From Minisyncoccota bacterium (GTDB lineage: Bacteria; Patescibacteriota; Minisyncoccia; Phycocordibacterales; UBA918): 42,658 nucleotides of DNA. The notes under the pieces were generated by a model. That model did no database searches, had not been told where the DNA came from, and was given only the letters and a program-made list of their open reading frames with translations. This document shows, piece after piece, positions 40,604 through 42,658 of this stretch (the stretch's first letter is position 1; each line of letters opens with the position of its first letter). The stretch spans positions 321,217 to 363,874 of the forward strand of contig JAJOLD010000001.1 in NCBI GenBank assembly GCA_021129515.1. Direction: 5' to 3'. The position numbers and the translations under genes were made by a program.

Positions 40604-40644
40604 CGTAAAAATCAAAGTGCAGCTCCCAAGCATACTTTCCAAAG

Positions 40645-40741
40645 TGCGAGTGCCAGGATTTGAACCTACGACTCATTCGTCTTGTCAGGTAAACAGTGTC
40701 TATACACTGTTTACCGCTCTAACACCTTCGCTACACTGCAC
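40645..40741 (-). pseudogene. tRNA-like unit with hairpin in place of the 5' anticodon-stem strand (Val GAC-like)
   Basis: On the minus strand the ends GTGCAGTG and CACTCGCAC pair over 8 bp with one bulged C, as an acceptor stem would. A D-arm-like GGTGTTAGAGCG follows, then hairpin 40688-40715, then CTGACAAGACG, equivalent to an anticodon loop with GAC. AGTCGTAGGTTCAAATCCTGG resembles the variable loop and T-arm. The D-stem and the 5' anticodon strand are damaged, so it is unlikely to be a working tRNA in this form. Confidence 0.55.
40688..40715. repeat. palindromic hairpin, family member 1
   Basis: GGTAAACAGTG and CACTGTTTACC pair perfectly; with an added T-A pair the loop is CTAT on the plus strand (ATAG on the minus). 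On the minus strand it follows GAGCG and precedes CTGACAA, the same position as members 2 and 3. Confidence 0.8.
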
Positions 40742-40851
40742 AATATAAAATCCTTTGTGCAGCTGGTAGGACTCGAACCTGCCTCCTTACAGGAGCTGTA
40801 TACCTTTTGGCTATTTTTGTTCGCTTCACTCCAAAAATATCACAAAAGCTT

Positions 40852-40892: not shown

Positions 40893-40922
40893 GGTGAGAC
40901 AAAGTCTATACTTTGTCTCACC
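40893..40922. repeat. palindromic hairpin, family member 2
   Basis: GGTGAGACAAAG (40893-40904) and CTTTGTCTCACC (40911-40922) pair perfectly around TCTATA. On the minus strand it follows TAGAGCG of a broken tRNA-Ile and is followed by CTGATAATGACGAGG, so it replaces the CGTCA strand of the anticodon stem. Confidence 0.85.
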
Positions 40923-40929
40923 GCTCTAT

Positions 40930-41062
40930 CTTTGAAAATTAAAGTAACGTTCAGTGTGCAGCTGGTAGGACTCGAACCTACGACCTCGTCATTATCAGTG
41001 ACGCGCTCTAACCACCTGAGCTACAGCTGCACGCTGCACACTACATTATTTAATTTTCAAAG
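40930..41062. repeat. 14-bp inverted repeat enclosing the intact tRNA-Ile
   Basis: CTTTGAAAATTAAA (40930-40943) and TTTAATTTTCAAAG (41049-41062) are exact complements. Inside them AGTGTGCAGC (40953-40962) and GCTGCACACT (41033-41042) extend the symmetry up to the tRNA ends. On the minus strand the repeat begins after CTGTAGCTCAGGTGGGGG and ends before ATAGAGCG, i.e. within the D-loop of a broken tRNA-Ile copy. Confidence 0.85.
40957..41030 (-). tRNA. tRNA-Ile(GAT)
   Basis: The 74-nt gene folds cleanly: acceptor GCAGCTG/CAGCTGC with discriminator A, D-arm GCTC/GAGC, anticodon stem CGTCA/TGACG with loop CTGATAA (anticodon GAT, T33 present), T-stem GTAGG/CCTAC with loop TTCGAGT. CCA is not encoded. 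It is transcribed on the minus strand inside the palindrome-rich unit. Its 5' leader repeats GTGCAGC, which could pair with the 3' acceptor strand in competition with the mature acceptor stem. Confidence 0.93.
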
Positions 41063-41106: not shown

Positions 41107-41134
41107 GTAAAACAAAGTATAGACTTTGTTTTAC
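41107..41134. repeat. palindromic hairpin, family member 3
   Basis: GTAAAACAAAG (41107-41117) and CTTTGTTTTAC (41124-41134) pair around TATAGA. On the minus strand it follows GGTTAGAGCG and precedes TGATAATC, as in the other family members. The loop is in the opposite orientation to members 1 and 2. Confidence 0.85.
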
Positions 41135-41270
41135 CGCTCTAACCAACCCTATCGCCTCATAAATATCGGCGATTCCTTCGGACCGGATGAAAAGCAAAAC
41201 TGTTTACTTTTCATAGCCACCGCTGCACAAAGGATTTTACATGGGACTCTATTCCCTCTTTAGCCCGCAA

Positions 41271-41685: not shown

Positions 41686-41720
41686 AAAATCCCTCCTCGG
41701 GATTATTAAAATATGGATAT

Positions 41721-41748
41721 ATTATATTAAAAAAATAATATTTGTCAA
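41721..41748 (-). promoter_or_regulatory. near-consensus promoter of the 41.4-kb gene
   Basis: On the minus strand TTGACA (41748-41743) and TATAAT (41726-41721) are both perfect consensus boxes with 16-nt spacing. The leader is about 30 nt long and ends in GAGGAGGG before the ATG at 41685. Confidence 0.8.
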
Positions 41749-41801
41749 CCCTGTGTACTCCCCTCTTTTTTGAGAGAAACCTAGGGTATGATTAAGGCTA
41801 T

Positions 41802-42218
41802 ATGGGATTAATTGGATTTTTAGGAAACCTTACTGCATTTTTAAGTAAAACGGTTATACCGTTTATACTTGCAATTGCCGCGCTTGCATTCTTTTGGAAT
41901 GTTGCACGATTATTTATTTTTAAAGGAGATAATGCTGCAGAACACGAACGTGCGCGCACATATGCTCTCTGGAGCCTTATTGGTTTTGTCTTGATACTTA
42001 GTTTCTGGGGTATTGTGGGACTGTTCACCAAAAATCTCTTTACCGGCATGGATGCTGCAGAAGTGTCTGATTACATACAACTAAACCCAAATGGTGCGTC
42101 TAACACATCTGGAAATAACGGAAACAATACTACTGGTGACACACAAGGCAATCCAAACAACATTCCACTTGGCGTTGAATGTTCTGATGTTGAAAATTCA
42201 CTCCATCCTGATTGTTAG
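41802..42218 (+). CDS. VirB2/TrbC-like small membrane protein (pilin-like)
   Basis: The 138-residue protein has two hydrophobic segments, residues 5-32 (AFLSKTVIPFILAIAALAFFW) and about 52-75 (ARTYALWSLIGFVLILSFWGIVG), separated by a short charged loop (FKGDNAAEHE). It resembles the VirB2/TrbC pilin-like proteins that are common in Patescibacteria, and the VirD4-like ATPase in this window fits a related surface machine. The C-terminal 50 residues are Asn/Gly/Thr-rich and end with two Cys, perhaps exposed. A TATGAT box lies 9 nt before the ATG and there is no SD. The role is inferred only from topology. Confidence 0.6.
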   Translation: MGLIGFLGNLTAFLSKTVIPFILAIAALAFFWNVARLFIFKGDNAAEHERARTYALWSLIGFVLILSFWGIVGLFTKNLFTGMDAAEVSDYIQLNPNGASNTSGNNGNNTTGDTQGNPNNIPLGVECSDVENSLHPDC

Positions 42219-42236
42219 TAATACATAGGCAACCAT

Positions 42237-42273
42237 ACAAAGAAGCCGCGAGCGTAGCTCGCGGCTTCTTTGT
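42237..42273. terminator. 17-bp bidirectional terminator between pilin-like gene and 16S unit
   Basis: ACAAAGAAGCCGCGAGC (42237-42253) pairs with GCTCGCGGCTTCTTTGT (42257-42273) around a GTA loop. It ends the pilin-like gene on the plus strand and can end 16S transcription on the minus strand, about 300 nt after the rRNA. Confidence 0.85.
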
Positions 42274-42324
42274 ATATCAAACTGCATTACATCAGCAGAG
42301 AAAGAATTTCTAACACATATGCCT

Positions 42325-42519
42325 TTACGCCTTACAGGCGCTGTGCAGGTTGTCGTTATTTTTCATAAACTCAAAATAACAGACAACCTCTTGCAAAAGC
42401 ATCCCATGCTTTTTCACTCTTTTTTGCCTTATCCTTTCGCAAAGTCTTTCCTTTGAGTCAAATACCACTTCTGGATGAGTATCATAGCCCGTTTTGTGCT
42501 CAATTGAGGCACAAAACAT
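42325..42519 (-). CDS. doubtful short ORF behind the 16S rRNA
   Basis: An ATG at 42519 opens 64 residues (MFCASIEHKTGYDTH...) that are basic in the middle (RLCERIRQKRVKKHG). The frame extends back to a TTG at 42576, touching the 16S end. No SD or promoter is seen, and the reading frame contains two dyads (TTTTGTGC-type palindrome near 42495-42520 and hairpin 42347-42389), so this may be structured rRNA spacer and not a gene. I recognise no family. Confidence 0.25.
   Translation of the reverse strand: MFCASIEHKTGYDTHPEVVFDSKERLCERIRQKRVKKHGMLLQEVVCYFEFMKNNDNLHSACKA
42347..42389. repeat. 16-bp hairpin in the 16S downstream spacer
   Basis: AGGTTGTC-GTTATTTT (42347-42362) pairs with AAAATAAC-A-GACAACCT (42373-42389), broken only by one bulged A. 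The loop is 10 nt. It has no U run and so is not a plain terminator. It may be an RNase III-type processing stem for the rRNA precursor. Confidence 0.6.
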
Positions 42520-42576
42520 CGACCAATTAGCCGCGAGTTGTCTTTCTGTTACCAGAGAAGACCACGACGTGTCCAA

Positions 42577-42658
42577 TTGGAATTAATCCACGACCAGCTT
42601 CCGCTAGCCGTGCCTTGTTACGACTTAGTCCTTGTTATCGAGCTTACCGTCGGCCGTG
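42577..42658 (-). rRNA. 16S rRNA, 3' end (rest outside window)
   Basis: The minus strand holds the conserved AAGTCGTAACAAGG of helix 44, followed by helix 45, CGGCTAGC-GGAA-GCTGGTCG, with the universal GGAA loop. After helix 45 the tail reads TGGATTAATTCC. Other bacteria have TGGATCACCTCC, so the anti-SD core CACCTCC is not present. The gene runs out of the window to the right. No tRNA or 23S follows within 1.5 kb and a terminator lies about 300 nt downstream, so the 16S gene is not followed by a standard operon. Confidence 0.9.

Follow-up and report, generated by a model that had tools for sequence, protein, structure and literature searches.

The window, i.e., the whole stretch of 42,658 nucleotides analysed here (G000:C1:321217-363874), ends on its right-hand side together with the contig (363874). 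This end cuts through a 16S rRNA gene on the minus strand, and what the window holds of the gene is a fragment, its final ~83 nt (Table 1). Read on the minus strand from 42658 to 42576, it runs ...AAGTCGTAACAAGGCACGGCTAGCGGAAGCTGGTCGTG and then GATTAATTCCAAT, and its elements are, in order, AAGTCGTAACAAGG, CACGGCTAGC, GGAA, GCTGGTCGTG, and GATTAATTCCAATTGGACACG. In the predicted fold, the GGAA loop at 42599-42602 closes ten uninterrupted helix 45 pairs, and the eight bases after helix 45, GAUUAAUU, are unpaired. Helix 45 is followed by GATTAATTCC where GATCACCTCC is the bacterial expectation, and the window's gene has GAUUAAUUCCAA at the place of the bacterial GAUCACCUCCUU. In the 13-nt tail, delimited by homology (42588->42576), CCUCC is absent; having no CCUCC within 13 nt past helix 45 marks bacteria that lack a canonical anti-Shine-Dalgarno (category iv, PMC10783764). 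The original prediction, made from the sequence of the window, that helix 45 and its GGAA loop are kept and that CCTCC is replaced after TGGAT, was correct to the base. The assembly was also searched for a further 16S fragment and for a second 16S copy with CCTCC; neither was found in it, and a full-length 16S gene is absent from it. The one 16S copy seen in the genome is the one truncated by the contig end, and since there is no other fragment in the assembly, the copy number is one, as far as visible.

Table 1. Features at the 3' end of the 16S rRNA gene and in its trailer (window positions)
Feature	Position	Strand	Basis
3' end of the 16S rRNA gene	42576..42658	-	AAGTCGTAACAAGG and helix 45 conserved; relatives have a full-length 16S here
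Helix 45, ten pairs and GGAA loop (KsgA/RsmA substrate loop)	42589..42612	-	fold; KsgA gene present
13-nt 16S tail GATTAATTCCAAT replacing GATCACCTCCTTT, without anti-Shine-Dalgarno	42576..42588	-	sequence; 26 family genomes identical; order-wide absence of CCTCC
CCAATTGG, trailer hairpin, 5' arm (overlaps with the tail)	42573..42580	-	three members folded, z -5.7 to -7.9
CTAATTGG, trailer hairpin, 3' arm	42523..42530	-	comparison and fold
Second trailer hairpin (GTTTTGTGC..GCACAAAAC), position conserved in the family	42491..42517	-	comparison and fold

Downstream of the 16S gene (window 41700-42520), no 23S gene follows within the window; the trailer hairpins, a plus-strand open frame (~41802-42218), and then a tRNA-Ile are found there. 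Because no 23S gene follows, the rRNA operon looks split. On the minus strand between 40640 and 41160, the intact tRNA-Ile (40956-41030) is located among tRNA-like fragments. In the tRNA-like stretch at 40644-40742, a perfect hairpin of 28 nt (GGUAAACAGUGU AUAG ACACUGUUUACC) stands in for the anticodon arm; hairpins of a similar kind occur again at 40893-40921 and 41107-41135. These fragments are possibly decayed or intervening tRNA copies.

Distribution and history of the altered tail

The family and the order were searched in 59 genomes, 48 of which contain the stretch. Within the window's family, GATTAATTCCAA does not differ by a single base among the 26 readable genomes, so the tail is not due to chance. 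This family includes Kaiserbacteria, and the same tail is present in G020:C54 and in the Kaiserbacteria record QKBW01000071. The rest of the gene is in relatives an ordinary full-length 16S (e.g., L017, 1386 bits to RF00177). Given that the window's gene is cut by the contig end and that the assembly holds no full 16S gene, the altered tail could conceivably come from a mistake in assembly or sequencing, or from a 16S pseudogene that accompanies a canonical copy missed by the assembly. Such an origin is very improbable, as independent assemblies of relatives have the same tail, with one match each, and as several relatives bear it in intact, full-length 16S genes.

Other families of the order end in GAATATTTCAA, GATTATTTCAA, GAACATTTCAA, GAATAATTCAA, and similar tails, none of which contain CCTCC. 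In an even draw of 384 genomes from the class, 222 had a readable tail and 77 of these had CCTCC in place; it was missing in 32 of the 32 readable genomes of the order, barring one extra, foreign-looking contig in G168. No own-lineage 16S read in the order has CCUCC in its tail. Altered tails were found as well in named records of Parcubacteria, namely, Kaiserbacteria, Nomurabacteria, Zambryskibacteria, Taylorbacteria, Adlerbacteria, Yonathbacteria, and Harrisonbacteria; the first five of these names occur, among others, in other families of the order. The comparison with relatives by which the original prediction was to be checked gave the same or similarly altered tails.

The extra contig in G168 (G168:C6:263-309) holds a second 16S end with CCTCC, while the genome's own copy reads ACATATCC (GAACATATCC). 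As the helix 45 on this contig is unlike that of the order, the contig was treated as foreign, and it probably represents contamination of the genome bin. Outside the class, nearly all tails end in CCTCC in a draw of 287 genomes from the phylum. Exceptions include G481 and G663 (AATACCGCC), G445 (TCACTTCC), and G628 (TTATCTCC), which may be separate beginnings of the same decay.

A 16S tree was built from 95 sequences with the tail left out. The order members and their neighbours form one clade of 45 sequences in which CCTCC is absent throughout (SH-aLRT 100), nested among lineages that retain CCTCC. The intermediate tails TTTTCTCC, GTTTCTCC, and AATTCTCC are positioned inside this clade but outside the order, near the base of the clade, and the tails ACATCTCC and TCACCTTC are placed elsewhere, beside CCTCC keepers. 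The CCTCC label requires 8 changes on the tree vs 28 in shuffles, of which at least 3 are forced by well-supported branches, the count being approximate because of long branches and open forks. This pattern reads as decay, and not as a single replacement.

The abrupt departure from the bacterial consensus after GGAT would also fit a mobile element or rearrangement that starts at the 16S end and replaced the last bases, as the original prediction had proposed for an alternative. However, the 26 family genomes share the altered tail and the trailer in conserved, co-linear form with no junction, similar alterations occur order-wide, and graded intermediates exist in the class. An insertion or junction at the 16S end was rejected on this ground, and such an origin retains next to no probability. 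That the anti-Shine-Dalgarno (anti-SD) has truly been lost is very probable.

Another part of the gene also varies in these bacteria. The 530-loop pseudoknot (505-507/524-526), elsewhere GGC/GCC, is altered in the 16S of relatives (L007, L017, L025, L028, and others). The replacements are compensated pairs (UCC/GGA, UGC/GCA, UAC/GUA, GCC/GGC, and GAC/GUC), and complementarity is kept in 45 of the 54 readable sequences of the tree set.

Shine-Dalgarno use and -10 boxes near start codons

Genes were called in the same way for every genome, using open frames of at least 120 codons, a coding score, and the first ATG as a simple start rule. The window's genome was sampled as stretches amounting to ~342 kb, window included, and the outgroup G632 was left out, since it gave no usable genes under the standard code or with TGA allowed. 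In the E. coli K-12 control, SD 4-mers precede 16 of 39 genes vs ~3 in control windows. The window's genome is SD-scarce, with 9 of 214 genes vs ~16 in control windows, and the same was found for two other members of the order (8/163 vs 14, and 2/79 vs 4). The original prediction that canonical SD pairing is abolished and that SDs are lacking is supported by both the similarly altered tails of relatives and the lack of SD enrichment in the window's genome.

SDs are in use in genomes from other classes of the phylum (G454, 26/80 vs 11; G608, 12/79 vs 4.4). Within the class, members that keep CCTCC show no clear SD use (G162, 10/134 vs 10; G242, 16/174 vs 17; G192, 5/83 vs 3.4, although longer motifs number 5 vs 1.2 in G192). 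In G175, which has an intermediate tail, the count is 9/76 vs 4.6. As SDs are not in use in CCTCC-keeping relatives either, the SD probably fell out of use before CCTCC was lost in part of the class, an order of events to which these few genomes point.

Of the words enriched ahead of starts in the window's genome, TATACT, a -10 box, ranks first, and it lies near the start codon (e.g., gcTATACTtacagtATG and gaTATAATtttcctATG). A strict -10 hexamer begins at -16 to -11 in 52 of 214 genes, vs 9-19 in control windows (p ~7e-17), with a maximum between -12 and -15 relative to the start codon. The closely placed -10 boxes claimed earlier for this DNA are therefore real. The same placement is found in G036 (49/163 genes, controls 5-18) and in G162 (29/134, controls 3-7); E. 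coli has nothing comparable. T directly precedes ATG in 62% of genes, and most genes have T(-1)A(+1). Transcription starts prefer a pyrimidine at -1 and a purine at +1, so T at -1 is expected where the A of ATG is the transcription start. Upstream of the close -10 boxes, -35 boxes were sought, and a clear peak at 17 nt is absent, so that these putative promoters are recognised by the -10 hexamer, by its spacing, and by T(-1)A(+1).

Many genes have a -10 box at the distance expected for transcription that starts on the start codon or no more than a few bases away from it. Such spacing is the layout of leaderless mRNAs: bacteria with such mRNAs have a -10 box ~7-10 nt ahead of the start codon in a large share of genes, and the counts in the window's genome and G036 agree with this. 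The mRNAs of this group may largely be leaderless or have very short leaders. It could be argued that the main route is non-SD initiation on leadered mRNAs, A-rich or Kozak-like as in Flavobacterium, and that close -10 boxes serve a minority of genes only. About three quarters of the called genes are without a strict close -10 box, which only about a quarter possess; bS1 is retained; and starts are A-rich downstream and moderately A-rich upstream. This route is unlikely to be the main one, although it deserves some weight, in view of the strong -10 peak that the window's genome, G036, and G162 share at -12 to -15, of T(-1)A(+1) in most genes, and of the F. johnsoniae mRNAs being mostly leadered (PMC6847099). 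Leaderless initiation is fairly probable as the main mode of initiation, and as the reason for the loss of the anti-SD.

The present tail and the translation machinery

The altered tail could alternatively be a changed but working anti-SD, in which GAUUAAUUCCAAU pairs with a new SD in mRNAs. Its invariance in the family would suit such a role, as would the enrichment upstream of starts of AT-only words complementary to AUUA (TAAT, 26 vs 7.6; TTAAT, 7 vs 1.8). However, complements that contain G are not enriched (TTGG, 1 vs 5.8; TGGA, 1 vs 3.0; GGAA, 3 vs 2.8; GAAT, 3 vs 3.8), which makes a switched SD code unlikely; TAAT has no fixed distance from the start and belongs to the -10-like sequence, and the tails of other families differ. 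A replacement SD complementary to the new tail is unsupported, no upstream motif complementary to the tail having been found at a fixed distance, and the probability left to this alternative is small. The predicted folds point to another role for the tail in the window's family. The invariant CCAAUUGG is the 5' arm of the trailer hairpin and CUAAUUGG its partner arm, and 27 of 33 family-type folds pair CCAATT. On the most plausible view, the freed anti-SD bases would in this family have become part of a 3' processing signal. The second trailer hairpin probably serves processing or termination.

Among the factors that act near helix 45, Era reads GAUCA and the adjoining CCUCC, the Era-read sequence being GAUCACCUCC (PMC10582724), and most CPR bacteria are without Era (PMC10582724; PMC12641178). 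In none of the 30 genomes tested here, CCTCC keepers included, was Era found above the curated cut-off. The absence of Era lifts one constraint on the tail; alone it is no predictor of CCUCC loss, and loss of Era as the sole cause was rejected, since it is absent from CCTCC-keeping genomes too. KsgA, which acts on the GGAA loop, is retained in 28 of the 30 genomes, including that of the window. S1-domain proteins are also retained, among them a bS1-like multi-domain one. In the window's genome, the bS1-like gene has a weak, divergent bS21-like gene a few kb away. Loss of bS21 as the cause has no clean link to the tail, presence and absence both occurring on either side.

The classical RF2 frameshift site CTTTGA is found 22-24 codons past ATG in four CCTCC keepers (G192, G255, G128, and G141), as read directly from the sequences, one site being confirmed by an automatic test as well. 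In the window's genome, G002, and G004, prfB opens directly behind TATACT and the frameshift site is absent. The prfB of the window's genome (C6:46205-47059) encodes an RF2 without ~50 residues of domain 1 (profile 19-57, then 111-352). G162 and G064, CCTCC keepers of another family, likewise have a shortened RF2 without the frameshift site, and the correlation with the loss is imperfect. With regard to RF2 length in general, the shortening of domain 1 by ~50 residues is also seen in L294 and order relatives, some class relatives (G162, G064, and G242) have almost no match to domain 1, and CCTCC keepers such as G192 have a full-length RF2 with the frameshift site.

Proposed explanation and comparison with known systems

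Taken as a whole, the most satisfactory explanation is that the anti-SD was lost by decay in a context of SD disuse and of leaderless or short-leader mRNAs, and this is considered likely. The ribosome would find a 5'-terminal AUG without pairing between mRNA and rRNA. With SDs gone and, going by the 30 genomes tested, Era absent throughout the class, little would hold CCUCC in place, and it could erode. In the window's family, the hairpin at the trailer start, which probably signals processing, has apparently fixed the freed bases. For genes that lack a close -10 box, another non-SD route would apply, e.g., coupling, bS1 binding, or an open start region. A wider proposal, which stands about an even chance, is that the entire order and several further lineages of the class abandoned mRNA-16S pairing, with mostly leaderless starts, and that a processing hairpin took over the anti-SD bases in the window's family. 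The class would then keep every stage of the transition: I) SD and CCUCC both in use, as in sister classes; II) CCUCC kept unused; III) CCUCC partly eroded; and IV) CCUCC gone.

The anti-SD is among the most constant bacterial sequences, and here its loss extends across an order of species-rich, ultra-small bacteria. As relatives are found at earlier stages, what holds the anti-SD, and how initiation proceeds without it, may be tested by comparison. A practical consequence is that SD-dependent gene finders may set starts wrongly in these bacteria.

Organisms that lack CCUCC already form a recognised category (category iv, PMC10783764). Amin et al. (2018) listed 128 organisms without CCUCCU, most of them Bacteroidetes, Mycoplasma, and Carsonella, and nearly all devoid of SDs (PMC6107228), and a 2024 survey added single Campbellbacteria, Wolfebacteria, and Peregrinibacteria genomes and two SR1 genomes without CCUCC (PMC10783764). 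These listed bacteria resemble the window's order in having no CCUCC past helix 45 and almost no SDs. However, the listed CPR cases are isolated genomes, whereas here the loss extends to all the families of an order that could be read and is tied to a leaderless -10 layout, and the class contains kept and intermediate states besides lost ones. In the literature searched, outside which subscription papers mostly fall, no published account was found of an order-wide loss in Patescibacteria, Parcubacteria, or CPR; the order-wide extent and the leaderless context appear to be new.

The 2024 survey tied the CCUCC loss of Nanoarchaeia to leaderless mRNAs (PMC10783764). A leaderless layout and a lost anti-SD are combined there as here, with the same proposed order of events, but Nanoarchaeia are archaea with TATA-box promoters, whereas the bacteria studied here have a sigma-type -10 box. 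In Flavobacteriia, SDs are absent from genes, as here, and the anti-SD is altered in many genera (PMC6847099, PMC6107228, PMC10783764). In contrast to the -10 boxes at the start codon described here, 87% of F. johnsoniae mRNAs have leaders over 10 nt, with a Kozak-like context (PMC6847099). Lastly, the mammalian mitochondrion is an organelle with an Era homologue (ERAL1), whereas the present case is a cellular bacterium without Era. Mammalian mitochondrial mRNAs are leaderless. In the small-subunit rRNA of this organelle, the anti-SD is absent and helix 45 is kept, as in the bacteria described here (PMC10582724).
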